A stretch of 64,000 nt of DNA from Pyronema omphalodes. Taxonomy: Eukaryota > Ascomycota > Pezizomycetes > Pezizales > Pyronemataceae. Location of the stretch: positions 62,001 through 126,000 of the forward strand of contig JAJJXM010000087.1 in NCBI GenBank assembly GCA_024516155.1, written 5' to 3'. Below, piece after piece: positions 18,352 through 56,407 of the stretch. Position 1 is the first letter of the stretch. The number at the start of each line of letters is the position of its first letter. The notes under the pieces were generated by a model that saw nothing but the letters and a program-made list of their open reading frames with translations, did no database searches and had not been told where the DNA came from. The translations under genes were made by a program, and so were the position numbers.

Positions 18352-18916
18352 TTAGAAAGCATTAGGACACCGTTCCCCACACTTAAAACTACTAATCCGT
18401 TTCTTATGATGATCCCCAAGTTCTGCGTGTCGTCGATTTTCTGCCGTGAATAGATGTTCTTTACAATTCTGGTCGTCATAGAAGGTACAGCAGCCGCCTT
18501 CTACACTGTAGGATATTATCCTTTGAGATATTAGCTTGTATCTCGCGGAGGTAAGCTTGTTTCATGGTGTCAAGCCCTGCCTCCGGGATGTGGTGATGCG
18601 GTAGGGGAAATAAGGACAGGAGGGTATAAAAGATTGGATATCGAAGGAAAACTAACACATTATCATGATTCGGCCCAGATAAAGCTCGGCATATCATAAA
18701 CTCGGGGAAGCGTGTATAACAGTCTTGGTAGTTGGCTTCGCGACAGTATTTTAGACGTACGTAGGGGATGTGCATTCCGAAGTTTCGTTTGGTTATTTCT
18801 GCGGCTGGGAGAGGGGGGGCTTGGTTACGGATGCCGGGGATGGCGGGAATGGCAAATGTGGAGGGGATTGTGAGGAGGAATGTTGTGAGCAGAGTAAGAT
18901 GGGTTGGGGTATGCAT
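18352..18916 (-). CDS. Small secreted 8-Cys protein A (Greek-key-like family)
   Basis: The function is unknown. Two exons (18916-18657, 18520-18352) encode 142 aa. Residues 1-22 form a clean signal peptide ending S-T-F-A, followed by a short pro-like segment with a K-R pair. The mature part has eight cysteines spaced C-x7-C-x9-C-x20-CC-x7-C-x27-C-x3-C. Each half ends in an I-S-S/I-S-Y motif and the second half opens G-G-C-C-T-F-Y-D, the pattern of beta/gamma-crystallin-like Greek-key domains in small secreted fungal proteins (inferred, not proven). A donor at AATGT|gttagt restores the phase-2 junction used by its three relatives. The alternative donor two bases earlier would add a longer insert. 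This copy lacks the second intron found in B, C and D. A TATATAAA box lies about 110 bases upstream. Confidence 0.75.
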
Positions 18917-20655
18917 TTTCTTTTAACGACGGTGGAGAATGGATAAAGGGTGGTTGATAGGCGGCTAGTTGATAGACGGCGATATTTCTGTTAGAGAATC
19001 GAAATATTCGAAAGAATTGCTGGTTTATATATCTCGAATTGTACTTCCTAGGTTCCCTATAGGTTCTTGCCCCAATGCACTTTCACCATAATTTAGAGAA
19101 ACATTCCAGACAAGTGCAAAATATTAATATCCTCAGCAAGCCCCAGGCAGCAGGCAAATTCGAAGTAAGGGCTGGATTTTGTCAGGTACCCTAAACGACT
19201 TTATGGATATATGATACCTGGTATACTTAAGTTTTGACGCGCGGGGACTATTACTGGTACTGTTGAGTTTCTGTATTTTTATATTGCTAAAGTTGTATCT
19301 GTATTGAATACCCTGAAATGCCGTTTTGTACCGTGCTTCTGAAATGCTGAAATTCTGGTAGTTTTGGAGTAATGGGCGGAATGTTTGGAGGATCAAATAT
19401 GAAAGATTAAAAGATGAAAGATGAAAGATGAAAGATGAAAGATGAAAGATGAAAGATGAAAGATGAAAGATGAAAGATGAAAGATGAAAGATGAAAGATG
19501 AAAGATGAAAGATGAAAGATGAAAGATGAAAGATGAAAGGCCGGTTCTCAAAGCGAAACTTATATAAACTTCTATATCAGTGATTTCTTGATTTCTTAAC
19601 AAGAAAGGTATGGATGCATTCAATAGCACAGAAAACACGGCTTCGTAAATAATACCCGGATGCTATGCATATCATTTCATTCCGATCATATCGATATGAG
19701 TGTCTATTCATTGATACACCTGAATCTCTGCTCTTCTGGTAGCTATAGTCTAGATGTTTTCCGCTTGGGAGTGGTATTCCCGAACACTTGTACATACGCT
19801 GCATGTTTTGATTTTGATTTGATTTTGATTATACACTGACCGAGGCCTGAGACGCCTATGCAGGACGCTACAAAAAAAAAACCTTTAATCCCGTCTTCGT
19901 GACTAAGGTCACATAGTGTGGCCCCCCGATTCATATGCTGTATGTAAGGGGGGTGCACGTGACTTTCATTAACACAAGTGAGATGTTATGAGGTAATGTA
20001 TGCATGTAGGTACTTCGCTTGTTTGATAGGCATAGCAACTGCGTGCTGATTTGAGAGGGCAACGGATGTTGATATTAAAAACTCTCCACTTGATATCATG
20101 GTATTGGACGTGAGTAGTGCGGACGAGATATTAAGGCATGCTTTTGAGTGCTTTACAGCAATGTTGTGTCACTATCTATAAAGGAGACAGAGTTCAGCAG
20201 GGCAGGAACACGGGTTGAAAGAAACCGGCGAGAATAATTGTGTTTTGTCGAAAGCTGGTGATAACTATCGAAGTCTGTTAACACAGTATGGTGTAACATT
20301 CACAAATAGATGGCGGTCATCAACTGGATAATAATCACGGGCGATCATTAATTCCGAAAGGACTGGGGACCCGGATCTGCTTACGTTAATGAGTATAGTC
20401 GTCCTACATAGGACACTTGTTCAGTAGAACTACTCCGTAATCGAACAAATGAACAAGCCAACCGAATAACTTTGAACTTTAAAGTTGACGAGTATATTTG
20501 CCTCACTTCAGTATTTCCATAGAACCAGCTCTCCATCTTCGTCTTGAACCATCACCCCACCCAAAAGTCCCTATCACCCCCAGAATCGCCGACCCCAGCT
20601 GACCGTAAATTCATCACCAGCTCCATCATGATATCAATTCCCTTATCGTGCGGCA
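18917..20655. repeat. Gene-poor spacer with a (GATGAAA)n microsatellite
   Basis: The 7-bp unit GATGAAA is repeated about 18 times at roughly 19411-19539 with hardly a break. On the minus strand this makes an open frame of S-S-F-I-F-H-L repeats, which is an artefact of the repeat. The rest (19.5-20.65 kb) is AT-rich with no recognisable gene. Confidence 0.7.
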
Positions 20656-21215
20656 TTACCGAATTGGAGGACAAGTATCAGCACACTTGATACTCGAAAT
20701 ACGGTCATTATGTTCCTACCAATACATTAGTAACCATACTACTGTCTGGCTCCATCGCGGGTGGGGGGAAGGGGGAGTGTATTATGCCTACCGGTCCAAT
20801 CAAATTATGCGCTCTATTAGTAGCCGAAAACAATTGTCCCGTGCAATTATCATTATCATAGAATGCACAGCATCCTCTTACGACTCTGTACGATGTGATC
20901 CTGTTTGTTTTATATAAGTTAGCTACTGTTGTGGTCATGAGAGTGGAAGGATGATGGTATGAGTTATGAGGGTCGGGAATGAAAGGAGAAGTCAACGTAC
21001 GAATCATTATCAGCGCCGGATAATGGCATACATTCATCATTGTCCCGGAAGAGTTGATCACAGTCCCGGAAGTCTCGGTGTTTGCAGTAGACGAGGAAGA
21101 CCAATTGCCGCGCTGCGAGTGTGTTTGGTGAGGTGATGGGTTGGGGAAGGGCGTAGGCTGGGGATAGGAACAGAAGGAAAGAGAACATGGTGGCGAAAAA
21201 TAGTGGAAGCTGCAT
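20656..21215 (-). CDS. Small secreted 8-Cys protein B (Greek-key-like family)
   Basis: The function is unknown. Three exons (21215-21001, 20900-20792, 20715-20656) encode 127 aa. I start at M-Q-L-P-L-F-F because a typical signal peptide (to S-P-A-Y-A, about residue 22) follows at once; the open frame extends further upstream but looks non-coding. Cysteines are spaced C-x7-C-x9-C-x19-CC-x7-C-x27-C-x3-C. The first half ends D-N-D-S-I-T-S-Y-R-V, the second runs G-C-C-A-F-Y-D-N-D-N-C-T-G and closes H-N-D-R-I-S-S-I-K-C. Intron 1 (100 nt) is phase 2 between the two halves and intron 2 (76 nt) is phase 0 before H-N-D. Of the four this is the one whose sequence most resembles a textbook two-motif beta/gamma-crystallin unit. 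Confidence 0.8.
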
Positions 21216-22480
21216 TGTTGAATGTTGGTTTGAGATGTGAGTTGGAAACTTTATGATGATCAGAAAATCTGGGGAAGGAATTGGATAGTCGAGTGGAGAT
21301 TGGGGTTTAAATAAGAATATTGGGATTGTCAAGCCTGGGTATGACTTACCGCCACCGGACTGCTGTAATCCCTCCGGAGAATACCATGGAAAAACTCGAT
21401 ACGGCAGATGTATTCCTTTCGGATATCATCATCACTGATAGATGCCTAAGAATGCGCCTCCTGTAACATCGTTAGACAATGTGGCTTTGTACAGACTCAT
21501 CCAACAATAACCCCATCGAGTCAATACCCAGAAACCAAGACGTAATAACGTTACAATGCATCGTCTCACAATGTCAGCATTAGCCGGGTGATAATTCAAA
21601 ATCTTTCGCCACAGACTACAAAGAATGCATCCCGCATATGCTGTGTAATTGGCGCATAGACACAACACAAGAATATCAAGCACAAACAAGCATAGCTGCA
21701 ACCAATCTTCATTTTAACACCAAAGAAGGCATAAACATAAAAACAGAAACGTCGAAAGTCATAGGGTATTTTTTAGCCAGTCATATGATCGATGTCGCCC
21801 GTTTCATATGCTTCACTTCCAAGTGCATATGTTGGGGCAGTGATACCCATGGCTCGTCCCGGAGTGCACAGTTAAGTTCAGTTGCCAGTGGCGATAGGCT
21901 ATTGCGGCACAGTCCAGTGCAGTTTTAGATGGTAGTCGACTGTGATTAACTGCCGACTTCAGGGTTGAACGTCGAGGGTTGAGATGGTAGCCTGGATTCG
22001 GGTTGTGAAAATCGAAGTGTTGTTTTTGAGGTACATATCTTTCTCTCTGTTTCTTCAAAATCTATACCCCCCTGTAACCATTTTACAAATTTATCATTGT
22101 ACTGAGTATCATGGATTAAGCAATAGAAAAATGCGAAAATTTCTTCTATTGTAGAAAATCAGTTATGTAATTTCAACAACAAATCCTGGATACACAACCC
22201 ACCAAGTCCATATATCATGATCCTAATTCTCTCTCATTGTAGAACACCTGCATTATCTCTGCATCCCCGCGGTGTTTGCACTTCAGGACCCAGGACGGCA
22301 AATTTTGCAATTGGCTGTAGTACGAGGTACCGAATAAACCGTGATATGTGGTTCAGTCTCGTCTGCACCCCGGACTAGACTGGACGGACGGTATGGGACA
22401 TTAGCTGCCTTTATGAATTGAACGTACCACGATCACAACCCATCACGGGAGCATAACATGACATGTTTAATTCTGCAATT
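21216..22480. other. Intergenic, no gene seen
   Basis: This includes the upstream region of secreted gene B (a TATTTAAA-like box about 90 bases before the ATG). Nothing else could be supported. The short open frames lack motifs. Confidence 0.45.
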
Positions 22481-22499
22481 CGTAATTGCATCGTTGAGG

Positions 22500-22605
22500 G
22501 GGTGGCCCCAGTAGTTGAGTGATAGTACACTTGTTATTTTGGTGTAGGTATATCAATATATGCAACTGCTCATCAGGTAACGGGTTAGAATCCCGTGTAG
22601 CAGCT
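22500..22605 (+). repeat. tRNA-like sequence, possibly a SINE or tRNA relic
   Basis: A perfect T-arm is present: 5-bp stem ACGGG/CCCGT (22580-22584 with 22592-22596) around the 7-base loop TTAGAAT, i.e. a good Pol III B box. About 60 bases upstream TAGTTGAGTGATAG (22512-22525) resembles an A box. The bases flanking the two boxes do not pair as an acceptor stem, and I cannot fold a clean anticodon arm. It is therefore not a functional tRNA gene by eye; a tRNA-derived SINE or a relic is the better guess. Confidence 0.3.
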
Positions 22606-23025
22606 ACAGTTGTCACTTGTTTACAGTGGTTTATCGTCAAGCGAGGTTTACACACCGTTCAAGAAATGTAATCATTGTTACCTAATTTTATCATCATAGG
22701 TATACACAAGTAACAGAATAATGGCGCCAAGCTGTGGCTTTAGAAAATTCCGGAGCCTCACACAGTAGCTCAAACCATAAGTACATAATTGACTCGGATT
22801 CCATACATAATCAACACATGAATCCAATATCCACCTCATCAGACCGCCTGCCAAATATTTAACACCATCAAAATTGTCCTCACTAAATTTACAAAATCTT
22901 ATCTCTCTCTAGCCAACCAGTGTCAATTTCTCATCCAGAGATCCCTTCGACAATCAAAACCACCGTCACTATTCCTCATCCTCTATCTTCTATACCTCTT
23001 TCCACCAAGCTCCAGTCCCGAAGCC
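22606..23025. other. Intergenic, no gene seen
   Basis: This is AT-rich 3' flank of secreted gene C. No features are supported. Confidence 0.45.
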
Positions 23026-23740
23026 TTATGCCATCGGCGGACACACATACCCACATTTATAACTCGAAATCTTGTCATTATGCCACTGTGTTTTTCAGTA
23101 TCAGCCACAAATTAAATCGTCTTATAAAATCCCCACCCCCCGTATAAAACATCCCCCACCCCACGAGGACTTCCTCATCTTCGAAGATCTCCAGTCTCAC
23201 TATTTTGTAGATATTGATAGATACAGATAAGAAAAGGACATACCTTTCCAATCTTCCCATGACTTCTATTAGTAGCGGAAAATAGTTCCTTGGTACAATC
23301 CCGTTCGTTGTAGAATGCACAGCAGCCATTTTTGACACGGTAGGATGAGACTCTGTGAGGTGGTTGGTTAGGTAAAGAAAACTCCTGGGTAATTTCCATG
23401 GGGCGGCGGGTGATGATTACGAAACAAAAAAAGCGTGGATAAGGGCGGGGGGAAGCAGAAAAAACAAAACAAAAACTCACTGATTATCCCATAACTCCTC
23501 CATCTGATAACACTCCCAATCGTTTGGGGTCTTATCTTTACACCACAGCCAATCTTTGTGTATACAATACTGTAGTTTAACCGAATTTGACATCCTATCT
23601 ACTTCTGTTCTCTCATCGCTCTTCGCAAGTGTCATGTCAGAGTCCATGGCTGGGGGAGATGAGCCGAGAGTAGGTATGATGAGAAAGAGATCTAGGAGAA
23701 GAATTGGGAGGAGATAGGATGAGCAGAGTAGAAGCTGCAT
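23026..23740 (-). CDS. Small secreted 8-Cys protein C (Greek-key-like family)
   Basis: The function is unknown. Three exons (23740-23481, 23352-23244, 23085-23026) encode 142 aa. The start at M-Q-L-L-L-C gives a hydrophobic signal peptide of about 28 residues. It carries one extra cysteine inside the signal and eight in the mature part, spaced C-x7-C-x9-C-x19-CC-x7-C-x27-C-x3-C. The halves end V-S-S-Y-R-V and H-N-D-K-I-S-S-Y-K-C; the middle reads N-G-C-C-A-F-Y-N-E-R-D-C. Exon 2 (109 nt) and exon 3 (60 nt) have exactly the lengths seen in gene B, and exon 1 (260 nt) exactly that in gene A. Introns are 128 and 158 nt, with the same phases as B and D. Around 30 residues between signal and first cysteine are acidic and probably disordered. 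Confidence 0.78.
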
Positions 23741-26530
23741 GTTTTTTGTTTTTGGTATCGATCTTTTGGAATTGCTGTTACTATTGCTGCTGGTAGAAGT
23801 ACTCCTAAGTACTTTATTTGAAGGTCGTTTGAAGTACTTTATGAAATACCTTTTCAACCTGTCTTTAAATCCAAATATCAAGTTCCATATTACAAAAGTG
23901 TTTTTATTTACGGGGAGCGGTCGTGTGCTTGACATGTGTGCCGGTGATCAGAAGGGTACCAGTACATAGGTCGAGTGATCATCTACAAGGTACATAGACT
24001 TTTAGCGGTATGCGGGGTTGTAGTACAAGATTCCTCTATTCATTTATTCATTTATTTTCGTTCGTTTCCTGGGTTTCTTTACTTCGTTTAGTTCTTGGGT
24101 TAATTTATTTCCTATCTACGTTTGATCTATGTACTTGATCCACTTTATTCAATCTAAGTACTTAGCATAGACTTTGATGGGATGATAAGAATCATAAGAC
24201 GCATAACGCAGATCTATGATACCCAGTCATATGCTTGATGTTTGATGCTTCGTGGTACCTCCTCATGCTTCTTGATATCGATACCTGAGATGGCCGAGTT
24301 TAGCGAAGGCCTAAGCAGTGAAGTATCGTCTTTGGTATAAGTATAGTGAATACAAAGTACGTAAAGTAAGTGCAAATGATCTGATAACAACGTGCACATC
24401 GAAGGTAAGTTTCAAAATACTGAGAAGGTGTTAGTTACTTTGGCGCTACTAGAAACGATTGTGCAGTTCTTGTGTGTGACATATATCTTACCAGATACAG
24501 ATTGCAAGAGGCTTGTAACAGCTACTAAGTTTTGGGGCAATTTTGGTTGTTAGTTGCGACTTATGGCAGATAGAATAGCATAGGGTATGATGGAATAAGA
24601 TAAACAAAACAACGATGACAGTGACAGCGACAGTGATGAGGCCAGAGATATGAGATGAGATAGAGGCTAGTCTATTTATCAAATAACAACAGAGATGAAA
24701 GCCGTTTGTGGGAGATACCAAAGTGGAGGTGGGGCTCATTGAACCATTTATTTCCTTGGATATTTCATTGAATTCACGTGATTCCTATTAGTGATTCCCG
24801 GAGTTAATTGTATCCAGTTAATCCACTTAGACACAAATCAGATTATAAGGACAGGACAAATTCGTGATACCAAATCGTCGACATGATGCCTGATGATGCC
24901 TCCTAATACCTCCTGACATCGATACCTGAAATAGGCGAGTGTGGCAAAACATTCAACTCCAGCTTCCTGTCAACCTTCGTCTCCAACCACTCTAACTATT
25001 CAAGAGCCAACAGTTTTGCGGGTAGCTTAACCTAATGACTCAGCATCAATACCTTTTTAAAGCATCATATCTCTTTCATATTTCGTGTCTTCATGCATAC
25101 CAAAAGAGGTGACCACTGATAAGCAGTAAAGCATCACTTTTGACCCGGCCGCACGAGTACGGGAAGGAAATGCAAAAAGGTCCGATAACGTGTAACTAAG
25201 TCGAAGTTACGTTTCAGAATGTCGGAACAAAAAAAAGGAAATGCACTTTCCTTTCTTGTATCTCTCTTGATGTATGTATGTTATGTATATGTGATATGTT
25301 TCAAATCTTTTACTCTGTGATAGCTCTTGATAGGCTCGACAACCTTAGTTGTGCTATGATGTGCTATATGATAAGATAAGGTAAGATAAAACCGCAAAGT
25401 GACAGTGATGGTGACGGTGATGGATAATATAATTCAAATTCCTGGGCTAAATGCAAGTCAGTACAAGCGCCTATTATGGGATGACAGTACATAGGAAAAA
25501 AAAATAGCAGCTAACTGTCTGGTAAGAATTATCCATACCGCATGGTTTTTATTTTCGTTATGATAAGCTCTCGATGAGAAGCAAAACTGTTATGGCTATG
25601 GTAATTTGGTGGTAGCAATACAACGGCATATGTAACTGGTGACTTCTTATATCTTATCTCTTCTCGCGCTCAGTAACATACTAATATCAAACATCTTCAA
25701 CCCGGTATTATTTCTTTGAGAAAAGCTCTATACATACGATAAACCCCAATCCCCAACCCTCATGATCTTTTTTCCGGTCCTTTTCAGTCCGGATGCTGGT
25801 GAAGATATGAAGAAATGAAGATATGAAGATGTGAAGATATGAAGATATGAAGACATAATAGATATCTACTTATAATGAGTAATAAATGAAGCTTACTGCA
25901 ATACCAGTACCAGTATCAGTAACGATCAAAATCCATACCAGAGCCGCCTTTACAATTTCTTGAACTGCTTATGATTTTTAAATTAACTACACCGGAAAAA
26001 GACTGCACTGAAACACAACAATATCTTCGTATTCAAATACATCTCTATCATTATCTTTCATAGCCATAGCTCGGCTCATTTCTCATTCCCAATCACCGCT
26101 CCCCCAGCACCCCGCACGCAACAAGAAAATAAAGGCCAAGAATTTGAGACTTTGAGAATTTAAGAATTTAGAAATTTCCACACTTAAGAATACGATTACA
26201 GATATCACATCCCCTATCCGCTATCTCCTCTTCCGAGCCGTGATAAGCCCTAGGATATAAAAAGTAAAAACAATAAAAAAAAAACACCAACGCTTAAAAT
26301 GCAAACGCCAAATCCCCGGTAAATCTCTCTTTCTGACACAACCCCCTCCCCACCCATCCACCGTCCTTTCCATCTGTTTGATCTTTTGTAGCTTCAATAT
26401 CCTCCCCACCCTCCCTGTGTGTATCATCCGACTAGTATGCCACATCTGCCGCATGTTTCCTTGGAGATGGTGAGTGCCCTTTTGTGAGATCTTACTCGGC
26501 AAGATGCTATTATGGCAGTTAGCTTTCGTT
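23741..26530. other. Gene-free spacer with a degenerate ~0.65-kb tandem duplication
   Basis: Two stretches, about 24230-24720 and 24880-25450, share a series of landmarks in the same order: CCTCCT..C.TGA.ATCGATACCTGA, then AGCAGT.AAG.ATC, then a TCCGATAACGTG-like piece, then GTGACAG.GA..GTGA. They look like diverged copies. A short minus-strand frame in the first copy (24739-24488) encodes one hydrophobic segment but is not conserved in the second, so I do not call it a gene. A few GAAGATAT-type repeats lie at 25800-25850. Confidence 0.45.
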
Positions 26531-26615
26531 CTCTCGTCACCCCGGTATATCATCCCATCGGCCACTGCTCCACCCGCCCACCCACCACTCTCCCCCAGTG
26601 CAGGAAGTAACTTAC

Positions 26616-28168
<1,553 letters not shown>

Positions 28169-28652
28169 CTGTTAGGTTCCATATCGGCCACAAAACAGCA
28201 CGAAAGTCAGCGGGGGGAACAACTTTCACTCTTGACAGTCGGCATGACGCGTCGTCCTTCGAGTTCAGGAGGCGACTTTTGTGGTGTCTTTTAGCTGTCA
28301 CCAACGCGGCAAAAGTGTTGATTTCAAAGGGTCAAACAGCTGGGTTTATTCTGCGGGATGACGTTCAGAACGTGATGAGGTGGTTCGTGGGCTCCTCCTA
28401 GCTCTCGGGAGCAACTGTCGCGGATAGTTTGCAGTTCAACTTGGAGGTCGGTTCCACCTATTTTCGGCGTTCCGTTGTTCGGCATATGCGGGGCGCTAGC
28501 GGCTGCTCATCTACAGGGATGTTTACGCCAAGCCGCGAATTGCGTCGTGTCCAGAGCAGCGGCAACAAAGAGCTTCCAGAAGACGAAGCGACGAAGCGAC
28601 AAAGGCACCAAAACATCTCAGGTCGAGTCGATACGAAGGAATAATACTACAA
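28169..28652. promoter_or_regulatory. Divergent promoter region of GCN5 and OST5
   Basis: These 484 bases separate the two ATGs. No TATA box is seen. The sequence is clearly more GC-rich than the flanking AT-rich spacers, as expected for a shared housekeeping promoter. Confidence 0.4.
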
Positions 28653-29048
28653 ATGGATACTGAGTGGAGCAACATGATTCCTTTTGAGCCTCTGGTCTCA
28701 AAGGATCTACAGTTTCCGGTCGCGTTTGTTCTGATGTGCATTGGTAAGCTTCCAGAGAGCTTGAGCTGAGGAGAGGGAGGCTAATGAAGATACAGGCTTC
28801 TTATTGACGGGATTGTTTTCGCTGAGTGAGATCCTCATGGGGGAATTGAGGAAGGAGGAAGGAATAGCAAGAAGCTAACATTGACCTAGACAAGTCCTTT
28901 ATCACCGCACCGTTCATAGCTCTTCCGGCGTCAGCATCATTTGCGTACGACCTCCTACCCCGCTGCAAGCCCGTTCAATTGACTGACAGGGTCTCTCTAC
29001 AGCTTCGGTGCAGTAATGTTAATCTGTGCATGCGGAGTATACGTATAA
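28653..29048 (+). CDS. OST5: OST5-like subunit of oligosaccharyltransferase (TMEM258 family)
   Basis: This is a small ER membrane subunit of the complex that N-glycosylates secretory proteins. Four exons (28653-28743, 28796-28825, 28890-28944, 29003-29048) encode 73 aa with all GT-AG junctions in frame. Exon 2 is only 30 nt, so no single open frame shows the gene. The protein opens with a polar stretch ending P-L-V-S-K-D-L-Q-F-P. It then has a first membrane span (V-A-F-V-L-M-C-I-G-F-L-L-T-G-L-F), a loop with N-K-S-F-I-T, and a second span ending G-A-V-M-L-I-C-A-C-G-V-Y-V at the C-terminus. This two-span plan and the terminal G-V-Y-V are typical of Ost5/TMEM258. CTAAT/CTAAC branch sites precede the first two acceptors. 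Confidence 0.85.
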
Positions 29049-29327
29049 TTGCTTTCTTTCAGCATTGGTAGTTGAGCTGAATTTGCGGGTGTATTGCTGT
29101 TACTTATTTCTTTACCTGGACCTAAAAGCGCTGTTAGAAGGGTGTGAGGACGACAGAGCAGACGAGAGAGTTTATTTATTAGAGCTACGACCGGCGCGTA
29201 CAGCTTGAAAATTGCATAAGGATACCCATCAGTTTTGTTCTCGTTCATAGCTCCCAGTTTGTGACATGTGACTTCGCATCTTCAACGCGTCTTCCTCTCG
29301 CTGCTAGCACCATAGCTCCCCACCACC

Positions 29328-30577: not shown

Positions 30578-31559
30578 TGGGATTACAAGGAGGGGAGGGG
30601 GGTGGAGGGGTACTGTGCAGTGTGAGTTGGCGGCTGGTAAAAAAAAGTTCATAAGCAGGGGATATCTGAAGCCAGGAGAATATACAGCCGACCAGTGTAC
30701 CTCATAAAAAAACATTAAATAGAAATAAACCAGAAATAACAATTCGATACAATAATAATCCCACTATCCATTCCAGTCCATTTATTCTCAAAGCGACCAA
30801 ATATATATCCATAATTTACCACATAACCAATCCCCCTCTATCCATATTGAACCAAACCTAAAGCCCAGATCAAAATAACAATTCACAATTGAAACCTCCT
30901 ATCCGTATGACATGTATCAGGCTTGCTTTGATCAGAAGATCGGGTGGGAAAATTGGCAATTTCGAAAAGGAGTTTCATGGAGGAATTCAAAAGTGAGCTT
31001 TTTGCTTCCATCCCCCTCTTCCGTTATACATAAAATTTATAGAGCTGGTAGTTTCAGTTGTCGATGGGCGTTAATGGCTGAAGAGGGGGGAGGGGGGGGG
31101 GGATGATATGCTGTTTTTGATATGGGATAACTGTTTCAAAACGGTCAACGTATAATTTAATAATAATAATAACCGTTTCAGAAGATTTGTTCATGTGCTC
31201 TATAGTGGTTTATGGTGGTTTATTTGCTGTAGTATTGATACCTTGATGTCCTGGTGTCCCTGTGTCTTGATGTCTTGATGTCTTGATACATCACATATTG
31301 AATTATATGTTGATGATTATACAATACACGAAAGTTTACTAATCGACAAGTTTAGATAAATCTGATTCTGATTCCTCCAGTTCTTCCAGTTCCTCTAGTT
31401 CCTTCATCCATCCCACCTTCTGCTGCGTTTGAACTTTTGTAACAGATATTACATGCGCATACAACCCCACTCTCTGAGTGACTGAGTCAATATGATATGA
31501 TTTGATTTGATTTGATTTCCACCGTCTGATTAGAAGGTATGTACTTGTATATCCATATC
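30578..31559. other. Intergenic, no gene seen
   Basis: This is the 3' flank of RAD1 and AT-rich sequence with short G runs (31084-31103) and TGTCTTGA-type micro-repeats near 31260. No coding region is supported. Confidence 0.5.
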
Positions 31560-36125: not shown

Positions 36126-36299
36126 TTGGGTGTCGTGGTTGTTGGTATTGTTTTCTTGGATTGGTTTTTTGTTGAATGGAGATGTTGATGGAGTTATTAA
36201 AATGGTATTGAATGAAGTCATTGTAACTATTGTTTTCTGAATTGGTTTTTGTAGTTGCCGAGTGGCGGGAAGGAGTAGTTTTTTGTTGGATGGAGTTGT

Positions 36300-38229: not shown

Positions 38230-41200
38230 ATGAGTAGTTCAACGGCATTAGAAATTCCCCCCGGCGGGTTTATTCTGGAAAAGTATCCAGAGGGAAAGCA
38301 GTTTCAAAAACAAGTCATGCGTCTGTCTCTTACAGATGAAGACATTATACAGGAAATGGTCGATCCTGGGAGTATCTTGAAGATTGCCTTTGGGAAGACC
38401 ATGGTATGGCCGCTTTACTCCAGCTCGCGTCTATACTACGTTTTGTTTTTTGACGCGATGGCTCCCGGAGTGTTTTGGTGCTGACTTTCCTTTGTTTGTA
38501 GAAATTGGTAATTGGAGAGGACGAATATAGCATAATGGCCGAGAAAGTCAGCGAAGCTCAACAGCCAGAGCTTTACCAAGCGGCCGGTAATAAGCTAAAT
38601 TTCATCTCTACAATTACTCACACTCTCCAAATCCAAGACGATGCAGATTCCGCAAATGAGAGTGAGCAAAAATTGCGAGACTCTTACGACCAATTAAACC
38701 AAGAGAAGGTGGTGGCTTCGACGTAAGTGGTCTCTTCCTCCAGGATTATGACGCCCCACCCCGTCTTTACTGCCTCTCTGTGTTTTTGGTCAAAAAAATG
38801 CTCACATTCTGTTTTTACAAAGTGTCTTGGTATCCGATTATGGATTGCTACCTCCGCCCCGTAACGCTCGCCAATTTGGATCATTGAAGAAGGCGTCGTA
38901 TTTAAAGAAAAACAGAAAGACCGTCGGAGCTACAGGATCAGGACCAACTACTCCTGGTCAAATTGGCCGATCTCCCGCTAGCATGGCCCAATCCACCGTC
39001 GAGTCCAGGGAGCTGCAAAAGGCCTTGCGGATCCCGATGGTGCATCTATTGGCACTTGGTCCGTTGACCGCAAAATCATTGGCAATAAAGACCAGAGCTC
39101 CCATCGAGCTTGTTGAAAAAGTCCTGCCTAAAATCGCAAAGATCGACATCACCGGTCGTCAATGGATCCTTCTCGATGACGCCTACAAGGAATTGGACGT
39201 TTGGGATTTCCCTTACATGAACGCCGACGACCGTGAAAAGGCGATTAAAAATGCCAAAGAGGCATTCAAGAGACAGCATCTCGCCAGCAGGGAGGAGGCT
39301 TGGTTTATGCTTGTTGAACCAGACAAGCGGGACGAGGCCAAGAGAAATGCCATCTCTGTGACTCCTGTTATGAGCGATAAGGAGGCTGCCGAAAGAGCCA
39401 TTTCTCTTCCTCCTCCTATCGATGCCAGCAAGCTGGCAAAGCAAGCTGCAAAGCCTCAGAAGGCGGCAAAGCCTGCAAAACAGTCAAATTTGATGTCTCG
39501 TCTCAAGGCCGGAGGAAAGATTACTGCACCCAAGGCGAAGAAAAATCCTCCTGCCAGCACCACCGCCGCCGCCACCCCTGCCGCCGCGCCCAAGGCAAAG
39601 GGAACCGTTGGACGTCCTCCTAAGAATCCGGCAGCTCCTAAAACTACCAAGGCTAATGCAAAGTCTACGGCTGCCAATAATTCAAAAATCAAGTCGGCGG
39701 AAATCATTACTGACTCAGATGAAGAGGCGGATATGGAGGATTCCGTTGTCTTGGCTCCTCCGAAGCCTGCACCAACAAAACCCTCGCCTGCTCCTCGTGT
39801 CACGCATGCGCTACCACCAAAGCCAGTTGTCTCTGCTGTACCTACCAAGCAGCTTGCAGACGCTCCTCGTCTTTCACCTAAGCGAAAGACGCTCGCCTCC
39901 AAGGAGCAGCCTGTTAATAAATCTCCGGCTAAGAAGGCAAAGACTCTTGCCCACTCTCCGGAGCCGCCTGTAAAGAGGGAGCCAACCAACTCCAAGAAGG
40001 TTTCCAGGGAACGTGCCTACTCGCCTGAGGTGGTTCAGAAATCTCGTGCTCCTCCTCCAGACTACTCCCCCGAGCCTGTAAAATCTCGGTCCTACGGCGG
40101 AGAGCAGACTTCAGAACCTACTAGAAAGAAGAATAGGGTTCCGTTGCCACCTGTCGGTACTCCGGAACACCTCAAGCGGCAACAATATAATGCCGCCTCT
40201 CCCGAACGACCTAAATCTTTGACCAACGCCAGAGATCTCTCCCCCGAGCCGGTCAGGAAGAGAAATAGGGTGCCTTTGCCTCCTGTTGGATCACCTGAGC
40301 CGATTAGAAAGGTTTATGACAGGTCCGCTTATTCTCCTGAGCCTGTCAGAAAGGCTCAGCAGAGCGCCGCTTACTCCCCTGAGGCAGCAAAGATTAGGAG
40401 GGACTATAGAGTTCGTGATCGCTCCCCTGAGCCTACTAGGAGGAGTCGTGATCGTTCTCTGGAGCCTGTGAGGAGGGGTCGTGATCGTTCTCCTGAGCCT
40501 TCTAGGAGGAGTGATCGTTCTCTGGAGCCTGTGAGGAGGAGGAGTCGTGATCGTTCTCCTGAGCCAGTTAGGAGATCTGTGAATGCATCTCGCCCTCGCG
40601 ATCGTTCTCGCGAGCCTGTCAGACGTCAGGAATCACTGGATCGTACCGTCAAGAGGGATGCTTATAAGATATCCCCAGCATCCGAGAAGAATGGATACAC
40701 CAACAAGACTTCTAACAAGACTCTTCCGAGACCCAGTTCGCAGCGCAGTGATAACAGCTTGGACCATAAGCGTACGCCATCGGACAGAACACCTATTGAC
40801 TCTAGGAGCCCTTCGTATCGTGGAAGCACCGACAGCCAGAGTCCTAGGGATAGCTTGAACGGACGCACGATAATCGACAGCCAGCCGCCAAGATACTCTT
40901 CTGTTGCTGTTAACGGTGCTAAGCGTAGAGGCGACCGTGATCGTGACGAATTGGTTGTCTCCAGCAAGTCTGGGAGATCCGCTTCTTCCTCTGAATACAG
41001 CAGCCAGAAAGATAGAGACGGCAACGAGCGAATCCTCAAGCGCCGTCCAGACAATGCCAACGGCGACAACGAGCGTCCCTCAAAGAAACGATCCGTCTCG
41101 CCTCCTTCCTCCAAGAAACAATCACCCTCTCCTCTACCCATTGGTGAAGTCGACCGCTCACTCCTCGCCAAAGCAAAACGGTTTAAAGATGAATATCAAC

Positions 41201-41430
41201 TCTTGAAAGATTTTCATAAGCGAGCTTCTCAGTTACCGGCTGGTAGTAGAGAGCAGCAGGCTCTGGTTGCAAAGGTTATGGATCTTACGGAGGATTTGGG
41301 GGCTATGAAGGCGGAGGTTTGGAGGAAGTCTGATAGGGAACTTGCTAGGCTGCAGCAGCAGCAGCAGGCGTCGGGATCATCATCATCGGCGGCGAAAATG
41401 GGACGGACGGATGCTGTTAAGGCTCGTTAG
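38230..41430 (+). CDS. ELL-like RNA polymerase II elongation factor with SPEP repeats
   Basis: ELL proteins bind Pol II, suppress pausing and work with EAF partners in the nucleus. Exons 38230-38403, 38502-38722 and 38823-41430 encode 1000 aa. Residues 1-135 form the beta-rich N-terminal part. Residues 199-290 (L-R-I-P-M-V-H-L-L-A-L-G-P to W-F-M-L-V) match the winged-helix ELL region, including the Y-K-E-L-D-V-W motif and the A-x-x-A-F-K-R-Q helix. The middle is Lys/Ala/Pro-rich with basic clusters, followed (about 529-732) by some 15 copies of an S-P-E-P-V-R-K/R motif alternating with D-R-S, like an RS domain. The C-terminus (about 908-985, L-L-A-K-A-K-R-F-K-D-E-Y-Q-L-L) resembles the occludin/ELL helical domain. 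The SPEP repeat is unusual for the family and could be a phosphorylation platform (inferred). Confidence 0.82.
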
Positions 41431-42633
41431 ACGGTGGGTGGTGGTTTATGATGCGTGGAATTGGGCTGTTTTGGGGGATCGATTGGATGCTCTGGAATAA
41501 TTATCGGCCTGCAACCGTTTTTATTATTATGTTTTTGTCTTTCTTCCATCCAGATTCCTAGTCCAACATAGTCCAGAAGTAAGCAAGCCTATGAAATGGA
41601 CACTAAGTTTATTAAAGGAAAGATGAAGATTATGTTTGACTTTTTTTTTTTTTTTATCTTGTTGACAATTTTTTCAAGCATTTGTTATGGAGTATATTAT
41701 TGCATTTGGAATTTTGTTTTTGCGATTTTGTACTTTGATTTTTTGTATTTTGCTGGAATGGGAACGGTTTTATTGCATTGCATTGCATGGCATGGCTATG
41801 TTTTTTTTTTTTGTTTCCTTCGTTTTTTTGATGTTCTGCTTTTTTTGATTTTTTTTTTTATCTGATTTTTTTATATGGGCTTATTGGCTGCTGCTGTATT
41901 TTTTTTTTCTTTTTTTTTTGTTGTTTTGTTTTGTTTTTTTTTTTTTTTTTTTTTTTTTTTTGTTTTTGCTCCTCAATGTCCTTTCTTTTATGGAATATGG
42001 AATATGGAATATGGGGGTGTTGTTGATTTGATTTGATTTGATTTGATTGACTACTGTGGTGCGGCCGTTCTTTGTAAAAACATATTGGCGTGTTGATTTT
42101 GCTTGTTTGTTTTATTTGTCTTGTTTGTATTGTTGGTTGCTGGCTGGTAGTTGGTTGGTAGTGGTAGTTGTGGGTAGTTGTGGGTAGTTAGGAGATGCTG
42201 TGATTTAATTATTATGGATATTTGCTGCGTTTTAAGCGTTTATTTCTCGCTCACTAAATTGATGGAGGCATGGAGGGATGGGGGGATGGGGGGATGGGGG
42301 GATGGAGGGATGGATTATTGTATCTTGTATATTTATTACGGCTTGGGAATTGGGGAGCTGGGGAGCGGACTGAGGAATAGACTTTCGTTGATATTGGTTT
42401 TGATTGTGATTGCGTTGTAAATTGTGATTGTGATTGTGATTGCGTTGTGAATTGTGATGTGATATTGATGTGACTTGGTGTTGATGTGATGTTGATGTGA
42501 TCTTGATGTGATGTGATATTGATGTTGATGTGACTTGTAACATCAACACCACAACCGCAACCGCAACCGCAACCCCTTTGCAACCGCTTTACCATATATA
42601 ATTCCTTCCATCTACCGCTACAGATCTCCCTAT
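41431..42633. other. T-rich and low-complexity spacer
   Basis: Long T tracts at 41641-41653, 41806-41960 and nearby, GGATGGGG repeats at 42277-42312, and GATTGTGATTGTGAT/TTGATGTGA repeats at 42410-42540. No genes. All open frames are products of the repeats. Confidence 0.7.
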
Positions 42634-43080
42634 GTGTCAAAACTTTCTATATATATATATACCTATCTATCTATCTATCTATCTTTAATCTTTCCTTCCA
42701 CCTTAAAATCCCTTTTTTTCTTTCCTTCTTCCTTTCCTTTATTTCTTTTTCTTTTTCTTTTTCTTTTTCTTCTTATTTCCTCTTTTCCTTCTTCTTCATC
42801 TCTTTTTCTTCTTTCCTTCTTTCCTTTCCGTTCCCACCCTCTTCATTTCCTTCCTTCATTTCTTCCGTTTTTATCATCAATCATCCCAATCCCAATCCCC
42901 CAGTCCCAATCCCAATCCCAATCCCAGTCCCAATCTCCCAATCATCCCAATCATCCCAATCCCAATCCCCCAATCCCATCCATCCCAGTCCCCCAGTCCC
43001 AATCCCAATCCCAGCTTTCAATCCCAATCCCAATCCCAATCCCAATCCCAATCCCAGTCCCAATCCCAATCCCATCTTTC
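42634..43080 (+). repeat. Pyrimidine-rich tract and (CCCAAT)n microsatellite
   Basis: From 42690 to 42880 the sequence is TTCC/TTTTTC-rich. From 42885 to 43075 it is mainly CCCAAT, with CCCAGT and CATCCCAAT variants. The unit is not the fungal telomere repeat (CCCTAA). Confidence 0.8.
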
Positions 43081-43770
43081 ACCACCAAGTTCAGTAGTTC
43101 AGTAGTTCAGTAGTTCAGTAGTTCAGTAGTTCAGTAGTTCAGCAGTATTTCAGTAGTTCAGCAGTTCAGCAGTTCAGTTCAGCAATTCAGTAGTCCCCCA
43201 GTCCCCCAGTCCCCCAATCCCCCAACCATCCCAATCCCAGTCTCCCAGTCTCCCAATCTCCCATCTTCCAACACCAAGTTCAGCAGTCCAGCAGTTTAGC
43301 AGTTCAGCAGTCCCCCAATCCCCCAATCCCATCTTTCACCACCATTTCTTCAACAAGCACTGAGCCCAGCAGTTCAGTAGTTCAGTAGTTTAGTAGTTCA
43401 GTAGTCCCCCAGTCCCCCCAGTCCCCCCAGTCCCCCAAGTTCAGCAGTTCAGCACCACCAGTCCCCCAAATTCAGTAGTTCAGTTCAGTAGTTCAGCAGT
43501 TTAGTTCGGTAGTTCACCACCAGTAGTTCAGTAGTTCATAGTTCAGCACCACCACCAAGTTCAGCAGTTCAGTAGATTAGCAGTTCAGTTCAGTAGTTCA
43601 GTCCCCCAAGTTCAGCAGTTCAGTAGTTCAGTAGTTTATAGCTTGGATTAGTTCAGTAGTTCAGTAGTTTAGTTCAGTAGTTCAGTAGTTCAGTAGTTCA
43701 GCAGTTCAGCAGTTCAGTAGTTCAGTAGTTCAGTAGTTCAGTAGTTCAGTAGTTCAGCAGTTTAGATTAG
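43081..43770 (+). repeat. AGTTCAGT satellite, about 700 bases
   Basis: The 8-bp unit AGTTCAGT is repeated in long runs (43090-43140, 43360-43410, 43620-43760), with GTCCCCC and CACCAC interruptions between runs. It is pure repeat with no coding sense. Confidence 0.85.
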
Positions 43771-43834
43771 ATTAGCTGGGATTAGATTAGATGGGGTTAG
43801 ATTAGAAGGGAACTGGAGTTGAAGATAACTGGAG

Positions 43835-44110
43835 TTGAAGATAACTGCGGCGTCCCCGGGGGCGGGGGAGCTGGGTTGGATATGGGGTATGGGGGATGGG
43901 GGCATGGGAGCTGGGGGCATGGGGCATAGGGAGCTGGGGCCAGGGGGCGGGGGGGTATGGGGGGGGGGTGTGTGGTTTGGGGTTTGGGGGCATGGGGTGT
44001 GGGGCGGGGGCGGGGGGCGGGGGCATGGGGACGGGGGGCATGGAGGTATTGGTTGGGTATTGGGGGTGGGGTGTGGGGGCATGGGGGGCTGGGGAGCTGG
44101 GGAATTTTGG
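43835..44110 (+). repeat. G-rich tract with many G4-capable runs
   Basis: Almost every 5-8 bases there is a run of three to nine G, separated by CAT, AGCT or TGT. The plus strand thus has strong guanine-quadruplex potential over some 270 bases. It directly follows the AGTTCAGT satellite and mirrors the C-rich tract upstream in strand bias. Confidence 0.75.
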
Positions 44111-45359
44111 AGTTTTTGGAGTGATCGGTATGGGTTGATAGCAGTGAGTTTGGGGTGCTTGAAGTTGGATATGATACCGTATAAGGCTTCAGGTTCAAGG
44201 TTTAAGGTCTAAGGTCTAAGGTTCTATCAAAAAAAAAAGGAAAAAAAATTTATTTCTTGGGGGAGATTATGAAAAGAAATGAAATGAAGTACATACAGCA
44301 TTTTGGAAATAAAAGAATCAAGATTCCGGAAGACGGGAACTAGGTTTCAGATTTCGGAAAATAGAAACGGAAAAAGAAAAAGAAAGATGAGAAGAGGATA
44401 GTGAATTGTTTTCCACTTTCGAGAATTATGATCACGTAGTTGAAGTGCAAGGGCTATTAACTCATAACTTATAACCTGTCGAGCGGAAAAGGAAAGATTG
44501 AAGTGAAGTGGAGGAGAGGGGGAATAGTCTTCATTATATACGGTAGTGATGGAGCTTGACGTGTGTACAGAAGGAGATATACCCAGTGTGGAAAGTTTAC
44601 CTGCACCGTGCACGTGCTAGTTACATGAGCCCTGACTGCTGCTGGCTAAGACACTGGAACTTTAGGTGACTTTTGACTTTTGACTAGAGGCCATGGAGAT
44701 CATGGATATCATGTAGGCCATGGAGATCATGCAGGTTTAGAACCGTGAACTTAGGAACTTAGGAACCTGTTGCAGAGATAGTTCAACATCGTTCCTTTCC
44801 CAATATCTTCTATATCTCGTATACTAGCATGATCAGGCGCCCAGGTCGTATCCAGATACCGTTTACTCCCCTCACCCAGCTGACATCGCCGGGTCCAACC
44901 CTAAGCTCCAGCTCGGCTCGGCTCTCCGTTATGTTATCTCCATCCTCCCGCCGCGGTGAGATGTTGACAATCTTCGGTGTGGATATATCGGATCTTTCGG
45001 ATAATTCGGATCTTTCGCTATTTCGCTATTTCGCTATTTATGGCGTTTTAGAATCCTGAAACTGAGACTGAGACTGAGACTGAGACTGAGCCTTGGTAAC
45101 CGTAATTCCTTCCAAGTTCCGACTATTGACAAAAACCATACCCAGCATATACATAACAGCAGCAGGTAACATTTTTCTTCCCCCAATGGTGTATCAAGTA
45201 TCAAGTATCAAATACCAGCCGGGTATAGAAACCAGAGGAATCAAAAGCTGGTGAACCGATAATTGCTTGAGGCGCCGGAACCGAAGAATTGGGTATGCTA
45301 GGATGTCTTGGAGTAGTGGGATGATGATGACGGATGATGGATGATGATGACGGATTACT
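44111..45359. other. Intergenic, no gene seen
   Basis: Short repeats only: TTTAAGGTCTAAGGT (44195-44225), ATGGAGATCATG (44690-44730) and ACTGAG (45060-45092). No supported features. Confidence 0.5.
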
Positions 45360-46805
45360 AAGATGATGATGATGGTATATTCTCTGTTGTCGTATATTGT
45401 GGGGTTATAATACTGTAATGGAGAACAGGCATGGAGAAGTCTTGAAGGGGTGGTTTGATGATGTCTAAGGTCTTTTCTCGTGTGGGATATGTTGAGGGCA
45501 TAAAGCTGCAACTATGAGGGAGGACGGGGAGGTTGTTTTGGATTCCGTCTACACGAGGGGGAATCATAAGCTGGTGAATCGAGAATCGAGAATCGAGAAT
45601 CTAGAATCGAGAATCGAGGGGTTCGATAGTGAGGATAATGGGGCGGTTTTGAAGTGCTTGGGTAGAGGTATGATGAGTGTGGTGATGTCGTCTCTGTTGT
45701 GAGATATTTTGAGATTATAGAGCTGCTATGGAGAGGAGGGACGAAAAAGTCTTTCGGATGCGGCATGGCAAAGGTTATGATAATGTCTTCTCTCGTGAGA
45801 TAATTTGAGGTTATAGAGCTGTAATGGTTAGGAGAAATGAAGGAGTCGCGAGTAGGGCTCTGTACTGAATTGATGGGTTCTAAAGATGGTGAACTGATGG
45901 TTGATCTAGCAGCGGTACGATGGTGGTAATGATGAGATATTCTGAGATTTTCGACCTTCCTGAAGGATTAAAGATACCGCTGAATGGGTTAGAGGCGTTA
46001 TAATCAGAGGCATGAAGAGCTGAGTGCAAGATTCGACATTCTCGACCGTAGACGAATGACCATATTTCCAGATCAGGAAGTGCAGATTCTTGTTTGAGGT
46101 ACTATAGCATTGGTTTCTAATTGATATTTTCGTAAAATATTGACGCGATGATTTTTGGGTAGCTTTCAAACAGGAAAAGGAACGGAAACACAATATGCTT
46201 TTGGAACGCAATTGTTGTTTTGACCGGTTGTAATGCAAGCCGCACAACAAACGATTATGCACGTCTGATCAATAGATCGGAAGAAGTAACCTACCATTAT
46301 CTTCTTCCGCAAACTGAACCCATTTGCTGTCTCTAAAACCTCCAACTGGCTAGTATCTGTTAGTATCAATCTCAAACATATAACAACAGGGATTAACTTA
46401 CGATGATATCTTAGCCATTAAGAAAGAAGAAGCATTCATCATCTGCGTCTATTCATCGTCTTTGAAAGCCATATCCACATGCCAAATCTGACTCACGATA
46501 ATACTCCCTCCACATAAGATACCGAAGGTGGATGAGAAGCCAAAAACCAGCACAACAATATCGGATGTCGGCTTGAGGTCTTAATCGTCTGAAAGATTCG
46601 AGGTTTTCAATTCTTTCATGAAAACTTTCACTTTATAGTGTAATATCCTTCTGAGGAGTTGGAGAACAAGCCGTGAACCCATGAAATCACGAGGCGAGGC
46701 AGTGCTGCGGTTTGGCTGTAGGTGATGGTGTAGGCAGAAGTGGTAATATTGGTATCTATGTGATACTAATCTACTGACAGTGAAACGGGTCATTCTTGGT
46801 AGCAT
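45360..46805 (-). pseudogene. Decayed multi-exon gene of unknown family with a repeated C-terminal motif
   Basis: From an ATG at 46805 one frame runs to 46402 but is broken by TAA (46581-46583) and TAG (46449-46451). It includes a membrane-like segment (D-I-V-V-L-V-F-G-F, then G-G-S-I-I-V). A textbook intron follows (46401-46350, donor gtaagt, TACTAAC branch), and the next piece reads Q-L-E-V-L-E-T-A-N-G-F-S-L-R-K-K-I. Further left, 46100-45360 encodes four or five diverged copies of a motif like H-S-S-S-I-I-S-K-Y-L-T-T-E in shifting frames. I do not recognise the family. Both stops could come from C-to-T changes in Gln codons, as in RIP, but two sites prove nothing. Confidence 0.4.
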
Positions 46806-49800
46806 GTTTGATTGTGGGAAAGTGCTGGAGGTGGTACCAGGTGGTATGTTTTGATGGTTGATGAAAGCTTGAAGATTGTTAGAAACGCGTGAGGAGAGAC
46901 GTACAACCTAGGGGGCTACGTACTGTGGTCTTGACAAAGATGGATCATGGACCCTAGTGGGTTTGTGATAGAAGCTGCATCAAGGAAGATTTCCGGCTGC
47001 TTTGACGATAGGGATAAACATCGTGACTGGTGGATTGAAGGCGTGATGTGTTGCCTAGAACGCGTGGATGGTGAGAGATGCAGGTGTTTGTAGAGATGAC
47101 AAAGGGTTGTGGGGGAAAGTTTTCATTATCCGGTACAAATATTGCGGCACTGATTGTTTGTGTTGGTGCTGCCGATATCAGTTTGGAGAGACATAGGTGC
47201 ACCCGCAATCACTCCGAATCCACATCTTACTACGTCACGGGAGGGAAAATCGTTCATATAAAAGTTCATCTACACCATTGTGAAAGCATTGGAGACCGAA
47301 TAAGGGATTGTTCTTTTATTTCCGCTTTATCTAAAGACAGCCTTGGTTCAGAAGTGAATACGGTGCTAGAATGGGCGTAGGATTTCAATTTTCGATAAAC
47401 CCCTCAATCCCCACCAATCCCCACAAGCTCCTGTGGACGTCAAAGACTAAAGGAGCTCACTTCCTTTTATAAGTCCCATTAAGAATATACCGTAGTTCAT
47501 CAATCAAAATGTTGTTCCCGCAATCTCCTTTATTTCTCGTCAGTATGAATCAATGCGTTCTGTGTTTTGCGGAAACCGGTTTTGATTGTTGCGGGATATG
47601 GTCAGATGAAGGTGGGGAATGTAAGCAAAATATGGGAGAGTATTACATCATGATTACTGGATATTAAAATGCACAGTGAAATCATTGTACCCGTCAACCT
47701 CAATGGCGTTTTGTACCCGCGTGCAGGGGTAAGTTCGGCGCTGTGTTGTATCGTTGTGTCAGACTTTTGTTCACCATGCAACCGTAGATGCTAGGATTAC
47801 TGACCCTCATGAATTACGAAACATTTTAAAGCGACAGTCATGTAATGGGCTATCACATGGCTCTTTAACCCCGAGTACCTTTACTCACGAAATCTCTCCA
47901 ATTCTGGCTGTTCCATTACTTTGTATACATTATATTGAAAGTGTCTTACTCAAAGCGGCTCCAGAGCACAAGAAAAGAAGCGTATAGAGAGCCTATCGTA
48001 AAAAGAAACAGGGGAGAAAGAAATCGACTATGTGGAAAAAAATGCAGAGGCTCCCATTTCGTTTGTGTCATACAAGCAAAATTCTTTTCGATGATCATTG
48101 TGCTACTTTAGTTTTATGCCGCATCAGACGTTGTGGCTTCCCTCATTTTAAATCTGCTTCCGGAAACAACGAGCATAACTTTTCTAGAAGACAATGATTA
48201 CGCGCTAAAAGTTTTGAATTAACGATAAGTACAGTAAGCAAGCTGGGGATTGATTGATATAGGGAAACACTCGCTCCTATAGCTTCTTTGAGGCGTAGAA
48301 GACGTTTTCCTTTGGTAATAATGACAGCATTGACAGGTATAAAGTGCAGGTGGCGTCCGCATAAGCTTATCCCAGGCCGTCACTTTGGAACTAGAGTGCA
48401 AAAGACGTTTCCATCAAGTTTGTACTCGCTCGATTCAAATGGTGTCACCGAGTGCAGAAATTATGTTCAGCAATTCATTGGGTTATACTCTGGAATATTG
48501 TGTACGCAAGTCTTATTAATCTGGTGTAAGATGTTACATATGGACCTGTGGGCATGAAATTGCGCTGGGATACATCTGCAGAGACGTCAATGGAGACATG
48601 ACTACTGAGCGAATTGGAAGAGATATCTCCTACATCGGGCTTTGATGAGTAAGGATTGAGAATCACTAGGCATTGGTGTCACCAAGAAAGTTTTAACTAC
48701 GCTATGGATTTAAAGTTGGCGTTAATCGTGTAACCACAATGCCACTAAGCGGAGACATTTAAGACAAGCCCCAGAGATCTAGTACATGGCGCTATAATAG
48801 GGTCATGGATATTCATGTCTATGCGCCAAACAATCAAACATATTGAACCCCACCAGTCTGTGTAATGTAGTGCTGCGCCTTTTTGGGCGGCTTCACTTGT
48901 GGAGGAGCTACGTGAAAATTGCCGACCGTTGTGCCTGGTGCGCACTCAGGAGACAAGAATAAAGAAATCTAAAACACGGGTATGTGCTTTGAACATAATC
49001 TTGGGAATGATTCGGACGGTGAATCCGGGTAGTTGATCTAAATTCCCAGCAGAGGATTAACTAACTACACGAGTCGCACAGGCCAAAGAGAGTGCATCAG
49101 AAACCTCTTACATAATCACGAGTTGTATAGCAGTCCAACATACGCATGAAGCACTGGAGAATAGCTCAGTATATGAGCTTATGGAGTACATTTTCGTAGG
49201 ACGATGGTTGAGGCTTTCGCTATATTGAAAAACAACTCATTCGTCTTGATTATATTGGTTTCTATCTGTCGGTAGTTTTATGTTCCACGATTGAACTCCT
49301 GATTTGAAAGGCCTTTAGATGCAGAATCCTAAGCTTTGAGATGTAATGTCTCAGAATTCTTTCTGAGTTGACTCGGGGCGTTGTAGGTGCAGATCTCCTC
49401 GGCTGCCATATCGTAATATCTGACAACCGTCACGGACTTTGATATTTTACGCAGCTGATTAATATCATCTACATATGTATAAATATATTACATGCAAATT
49501 TGGTGAATGCACATTATTGATTGCATTTGGAAACGTGCATAAAAATTAAACTCTGAATAAATTAAATATATAATGCTTATTTTCTCGAACTACCACAACA
49601 ACATCATCCTAAATCCTGAATCTCGATAAATCAAGTGTGCAACAGAAAGCCTGGCTACTTCATATTTTGTACATCGAGTAACATCACTTTGAGCACAGAA
49701 CTGGTACGTTTTTTTCATTCTCTTTCACCAATCAAGATACTTGCACATCTTACAAGCCGATTCTCCTGTGTGTTGAAATTTGTTGCGGTTTGACTATTGG

Positions 49801-50013
49801 AGTCGGCCAAGTGATACATGGAGCTCTATATAAATATCAATTTTATTCGCCTTCATGTCCTTGAATGAATCAACCCTTTCACTCCGTTTCTTCCCCTATC
49901 TTTTCAGTGTGTGCTAAGAAGAGAAAGGTCTAGATATAAAAACACAGGCGCAAGACTCCCAGTAATAATCAGCAAATCAACTTTACAGTCACTACTTATC
50001 TTATCTCTTCATC
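46806..50013. other. Gene-free spacer
   Basis: About 3.2 kb of AT-rich sequence. Several open frames of 60-100 codons exist (e.g. 47078-47380, 47754-47987) but show no motif, splice pattern or composition that supports coding. A TATATAAA box at 49827-49834 lies about 180 bases before secreted gene D. Confidence 0.5.
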
Positions 50014-50576
50014 ATGCATCCCAAAAACATCTTTCTCTCTACAATACTTCTATTTCTCTCCTCACTTCCACTCATACTTGCCCTTCCCAGCGAAATATCC
50101 GACATGACATTTGTGGGATCGTCGGGATCGTCAAGCGCAACCGGCATAAGCGCGCGCGGCGCTCGGGGGCCCGCAAGCGTAAAGGTCCTTCTCTGTCACG
50201 ACAAGGACTGGGTATTATGCCAATGGTTTAAGATAGAAGATTATTACTGTTGGCGCCTACCCGCTATTTGGACAGAATCGTATGTCCTCTCATATCTCCC
50301 TCTATCCGATAGATGCTAAAGAAAATAATACAGTATCTCAGGCTACCGGGTAGAAGGAGGTTGCTGTGTGTTCTGGTCAGAGAACTTTTGCACCCAGGGT
50401 TACATGTTTGAGGCAACAAATAGACAGCACAGCAAGCTCGGGAAGGTAAATTCAAAGTCCAAATAACCCATGATTAAACGGTTTTGAAAGCTAATTGTAA
50501 CTTATAGTGGCATAACGACAAGATCAAAAGTATCAGATGTGCTCCGGTAAACGATCCGAAAGACTGTCCATTCTGA
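50014..50576 (+). CDS. Small secreted 8-Cys protein D (Greek-key-like family)
   Basis: The function is unknown. Three exons (50014-50279, 50334-50445, 50508-50576) encode 148 aa. A signal peptide of about 23 residues ends L-I-L-A. A Ser/Gly/Ala-rich stretch follows, with the dibasic-free cleavage-like motif A-R-G-A-R-G. Cysteines are spaced C-x7-C-x9-C-x19-CC-x7-C-x28-C-x8-C, one residue longer in the sixth gap and five longer in the last gap than in A-C. The core reads G-Y-R-V-E-G-G-C-C-V-F-W and the end K-W-H-N-D-K-I-K-S-I-R-C, closest to gene C. Introns are only 54 and 62 nt but in the same positions and phases (2 and 0). It is on the other strand and 26 kb from the cluster. A TATATAAA box is 180 bases upstream. 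Confidence 0.8.
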
Positions 50577-54809: not shown

Positions 54810-54811
54810 TT

Positions 54812-55220: not shown

Positions 55221-55223
55221 ATC

Positions 55224-56399: not shown

Positions 56400-56407
56400 A
56401 CTCTCTT

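Follow-up and report, generated by a model that had tools for sequence, protein, structure and literature searches.

Four genes in a stretch of Pyronema omphalodes DNA (contig JAJJXM010000087.1, positions 62,001–126,000, a window of 64,000 nucleotides) encode small, cysteine-rich proteins whose family and fold are, very probably, those of the betagamma-crystallins (PF00030). We take this fungus to be the same species as P. confluens, and we refer to the genes as A, B, C, and D (Table 1). The best explanation as a whole, to which we give a probability of about one-half, is that they belong to a family of secreted crystallins that are stabilized by Ca2+ and disulfides and that have a defensive role.

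An earlier note had placed four genes here and given them a common eight-cysteine spacing, and both claims hold. Once their exons are joined at GT–AG introns, all four genes yield complete proteins at the positions and on the strands proposed, and intron positions are conserved: that of the first (phase 2) in A, B, C, and D and that of the second (phase 0) in B, C, and D, gene A lacking it. The spacing C-x7-C-x9-C-x19/20-CC-x7-C-x27/28-C-x3/8-C occurs in all four exactly as described; the extra cysteine of gene C is residue 6, inside the presumed signal peptide. The signal peptides of A–D are presumed throughout, having been called by eye from hydrophobic N termini. With these removed, all six pairs match in BLASTP (E from 5e-14 to 2e-30). 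In leave-one-out tests, the profiles give 87.4–115.3 bits, against 12.8 for the best shuffle (2000 shuffles per protein); on sequence grounds, the homology of the four genes is beyond doubt. Gene D is identical to the NCBI protein P0002 and gene C, over its first 135 residues, to P0001, both hypothetical proteins of Pyronema omphalodes, and no NCBI protein identical to A or B was returned by the protein search in which both were in the query. P0003, from Pyronema domesticum, shares 63% identity with gene D (80 of 128 columns), and P0005, a Pyronema protein of 114 amino acids, is 52% identical to P0001 and up to 61% identical to sequences in the window's assembly. Three protein searches for wider homologs returned only Pyronema-named proteins and one unnamed near-copy of P0003, which does not settle the distribution outside the genus; the NCBI record title of P0005 names a Podospora protein as similar.

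The family is also much larger than the four members first described. Searches with five protein queries, which successively yielded 22 loci, 9 more, 1 more, and none new in the last two, give at least 32 distinct loci in the window's assembly (60.8 Mb, 232 contigs) when neighboring exon hits are merged, a lower bound whose weakest matches (E > 0.01) are unsure. In the explanation that we favor, it would have grown by duplication in Pyronema. Gene models were taken for 26 of the 32 loci, six being left out. An alignment of 21 rows holds the four window genes, 16 other loci, and P0005, and a 27-row set adds six further loci, some with partial models. A clear signal peptide is not universal among the models, locus L017 being without one. 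Literature searches, including Pyronema together with crystallin, found no description of this secreted family, and the word “crystallin” is absent from the main text of the P. confluens paper (PMC3778014). One candidate, PMC10714830, was discarded, as the word in the accessible part of that paper is “crystalline.”

The assignment to PF00030 draws on Pfam, on profile searches of the PDB, and on structure comparison. All four window genes match PF00030 (E 0.024 for A, 0.00043 for B, 0.0035 for C, and 0.03 for D) with scores of 14.9–20.8 bits, none reaching the curated cut-off of 25, and P0005 passes it at 25.9 bits. At E ≤ 0.1, 12 of the 21 aligned members match PF00030 and six match LysM14_C; two of the LysM14_C scores, 17 and 15.9 bits, lie under the cut-off of 27 for that family. 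In the PDB, the 21-row profile found seven sequences at E ≤ 10, all crystallins, and the sole match of a 4-row profile was 3hzb (E 1.2). Foldseek and VIA-align, queried with two predicted models of low confidence, listed crystallins almost exclusively. The earlier note had proposed two crystallin-like Greek keys and had recognized no named family. The first proposal is supported by the Pfam, PDB, and structure searches, both models being of low confidence, and the second gives way to PF00030.

The cysteines, numbered C1 to C8, can be related to the aromatic signature of crystallins, [YF]-x4-[YF]-x-G. C1 is missing from seven of the 27 rows, and because all seven have Y or F instead, C1 appears to occupy the first aromatic position of the signature in motif 1; four of these rows (L019, L027, L029, and L030) show the crystallin signature itself. 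Over the whole set, motif 1 of the YxxxxY/FxG signature begins with C in 20 rows and with Y/F in seven, and 23 rows have an aromatic residue at its sixth position. In motif 2, the first position is aromatic in every one of the 27 rows, and the sixth, where the second aromatic would be expected, is always C6. C1 and C2 are lost together in three of 21 rows, neither is lost alone, and four of the six extra loci have a single cysteine ahead of the CC pair. Because of the joint loss of C1 and C2 and the pattern of C1 replacement, a C1–C2 disulfide is supported by the sequences. The pairs C4–C8, C5–C6, and C3–C7 would follow from the topology; C4 and C8 are both lost in L023, and L024 lacks C8 alone. 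The four disulfides per protein originally envisaged are plausible, but C1–C2 is the one pairing with real support. As a separate observation, L023 (positions 1449–1757 of another contig) is an intronless relative of 102 amino acids with six cysteines, and it may be nearer to ordinary fungal crystallins.

The motif that closes each half of the A–D proteins has the form of the crystallin Ca2+ site, N/D-N/D-x-x-S/T-S, as this is given in the accessible part of PMC3551895. Both sites are strict in gene B (NDSITS and NDRISS) and in gene C (DNQVSS and NDKISS). Neither is strict in gene A (DNVIIS and KKRISS, the first one residue off) or in gene D (TESISG and NDKIKS, the second one residue off), so that the closing motif claimed for every half departs from the strict form in A and D. 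Among the 21 rows, nine have both sites strict, one has one, and 11 have neither, with clear loss at both sites in five of these 11. Both are strict in one of the six extra loci (L009) and neither in the other five, of which L027 has no readable second site. The best tree has five changes of the Ca2+ motif, and its supported branches force one; the number of losses is uncertain because the backbone of the tree is unresolved.

In the explanation that we favor, A–D would be secreted single-domain betagamma-crystallins of two Greek keys each, with a C-x7-C pair within the first hairpin of every key and a crystallin Ca2+ motif at its end. In members with both motifs intact, about half, the motif suggests that Ca2+ binding would stiffen the domain; in members with altered or lost motifs, the disulfides alone would probably hold the fold. 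The proteins would probably be released around hyphae or fruiting bodies, and the rigid beta-sandwich could serve as a carrier of diverging surface loops. They may serve to defend against, or to antagonize, microbes in the soil or competing fungi, a part of the explanation that we hold tentatively and at somewhat less than even odds. In P. confluens, expanded secreted CBM_14 and Defensin_2 families have been tentatively tied to soil defense (PMC3778014, accessible part). A more elaborate version, which we consider unlikely, is an arsenal of many secreted copies, where Ca2+-gated forms, suited for example to Ca2+-rich ash soil, coexist with disulfide-only, Ca2+-independent ones. If so, two-site members would fold or act only where Ca2+ is plentiful, and those that have lost both sites would rely on disulfides.

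Several observations weigh against this overall explanation. First, a 6-row profile matched an acetylcholine receptor (E 0.55) ahead of 3hzb (E 1.3). Second, both structure models, made from 4-row alignments, have low mean predicted local distance difference test scores (58.7 and 47.6), and Foldseek gave no match at E ≤ 0.001. Third, PF00030 had no matches in the six-frame translation of the genome; because the exons are short and diverged, we do not take this as absence. Fourth, comparison of the profiles of the two halves was weak (probability 64%, over 14 columns around the Ca2+ motif), and internal duplication of the halves was set aside on that comparison. Finally, six of the 11 rows with neither site strict (A, D, both genes of L014, L020, and L023) have at least one site that is a single residue off, and the both-or-neither split is therefore less sharp than the strict count implies. 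The Fisher P of 3.4e-5 for co-occurrence of the sites, based on that count, ignores relatedness, and the supported tree branches give only one independent pair.

Of the other explanations, one is that these are coat, matrix, or stress proteins, that is, Ca2+-stabilized crystallins packed on ascospores, hyphae, or apothecia and giving protection in burnt soil, which seems possible but rather doubtful. The structure searches matched Protein S of Myxococcus (1nps and 1prr) and 1hdf, which we take to be spherulin 3a of Physarum. The third match of the P0001 model, at 8% identity, is the betagamma-crystallin domain of a fungal protein, the Abundant Perithecial Protein of Neurospora crassa (5z6e), where it is presumably paired with an immunoglobulin-like domain. 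Protein S and spherulin 3a are described as stress-linked and Ca2+-dependent in the part of PMC3551895 at hand, a further point against the explanation that we favor. In P. confluens, moreover, more than 20% of orphan genes, multi-paralog families excluded, are up-regulated in sexual development (PMC3778014, accessible part). Against a coat function, so many copies have diverged, with changes in their Ca2+ motifs, and a conserved coat protein would not need this.

Host-directed effectors, acting on a plant or another host, are a highly improbable alternative. The proteins are small and cysteine-rich with presumed signal peptides, and crystallin-like candidate effectors appear in the accessible parts of reports on other fungi (PMC10462633, PMC12396751 on FonR3SE1, and PMC8146201). 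But a plant-effector role is unlikely, as far as such analysis can judge, because Pyronema is a non-pathogenic saprotroph; P. confluens is called saprobic and non-pathogenic in the accessible part of PMC3778014. Nor is the crystallin fold a marker of effectors, because the commonest candidate-effector fold families are described as spanning all fungal lifestyles, KP6 apart, in the portion of PMC10462633 consulted. Gene D alone lies near recognizable transposon open reading frames (ORFs), the other three genes being away from them, and the effector setting that had been suggested is not supported; the antimicrobial action also named in the earlier note may yet apply. Least credible is that an unrelated cysteine-rich beta fold acquired the NDxISS motif by convergence, for although the sub-threshold Pfam scores of the four window genes, the weak LysM14_C matches of six members, and the low-confidence models leave some room for it, the P0005 score, the concurrence of profile and structure searches, and the aromatic residues replacing C1 all speak against it.

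Secreted crystallins have precedents. Genes B and C have, in each half, the same motif as the microbial Ca2+-binding betagamma-crystallins clostrillin, flavollin, Protein S, and spherulin 3a, and microbial betagamma-crystallins are among the best structure matches of the Pyronema models, flavollin also being found, weakly, by profile. Unlike these, the Pyronema proteins are presumably secreted and cysteine-rich, their genes have two conserved introns, and C1 and C6 stand at the first aromatic of motif 1 and the second aromatic of motif 2, respectively. By the accessible part of PMC10462633, secreted crystallin-fold proteins are widespread in Pezizomycotina, and fungal orphan candidate effectors that are small and secreted and have a beta8 double Greek key occur in more than 80% of 20 species studied. 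Those candidates were chosen as having no recognized Pfam domain, and their likeness to the Pyronema proteins is one of description; Pyronema is not named in the crystallin-fold section at hand. The yeast killer toxin HM-1/WmKT (1wkt) is a secreted fungal crystallin fold of similar size, 88 amino acids when mature (PMC12715866, accessible part). It is not among the matches listed in the profile and structure searches, which does not exclude a relation, and the likeness to the Pyronema proteins would be one of fold class. Killer toxins of this type kill sensitive yeasts by inhibiting glucan synthase.

Because secreted crystallin folds are already widespread in fungi (PMC10462633, accessible part), the Pyronema family is a variant within a known kind. 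A large secreted family can nevertheless now be named, with a probable fold and a chemistry that can be tested. With intact and lost Ca2+ motifs and with eight-cysteine and six-cysteine paralogs all in one assembly, the set suits the question of how metal binding gives way to disulfides within the crystallin fold.

The genes had been described as lying beside transposons, which is true of gene D but not of A–C. Long interspersed nuclear element (LINE) and Ty3/Gypsy ORFs, identified by Pfam, start ∼1.5 kb beyond gene D, from about 52 kb. No recognizable transposon ORFs lie near A–C in the window, by a search that covered transposons with ORFs; the nearest are RNase H/LINE-like pieces at 4.2–6.0 kb, where the first ORF resembles, by eye, the LINE protein at 52047–54203. 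The Ty3/Gypsy element between two LINE pieces is a nested insertion, probably a very recent one because its long terminal repeats (LTRs) are identical. No 4-kb piece of the window passes both of the usual indices of repeat-induced mutation, and 32–36 kb passes one.

Table 1. Coordinates of the crystallin-family genes and transposon-related features in the window
Feature	Position	Strand	Description
Gene A	18352-18916	-	142 amino acids; exons 18657-18916, 18352-18520; 8 Cys; no second intron
Gene B	20656-21215	-	127 amino acids; exons 21001-21215, 20792-20900, 20656-20715; 8 Cys
Gene C	23026-23740	-	142 amino acids; exons 23481-23740, 23244-23352, 23026-23085; 8 Cys and one more
Gene D	50014-50576	+	148 amino acids; exons 50014-50279, 50334-50445, 50508-50576; 8 Cys
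Two ORFs	4203-5985	+	Second matches RNase H (Pfam); first has no Pfam match
Ty3/Gypsy-type retrotransposon	54270-60625	+	gag ORF 55224-56366; pol ORF 56408-60061, with integrase and chromodomain
LTRs of Ty3/Gypsy element	54270-54809, 60086-60625		540 bases, 100% identical
LINE pieces flanking Ty3/Gypsy element	52047-54203, 60621-63426	-	

Two minor observations concern the genes themselves. At the 3′ end of gene C (22820–23085), the NCBI model P0001 removes the end of the last exon by a further intron and takes another 3′ exon, so that it ends in ...GRSDEVDIGFMC, whereas the unspliced reading ends in ...GYVCPPMA, as in the paralogs; the difference may reflect alternative splicing or an error of the model. 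A tandem array with a 7-base unit (19391–19539) separates gene A from gene B and starts from a distance of ∼480 bases upstream of gene A; it repeats GATGAAA (CATCTTT on the opposite strand) 21 times.
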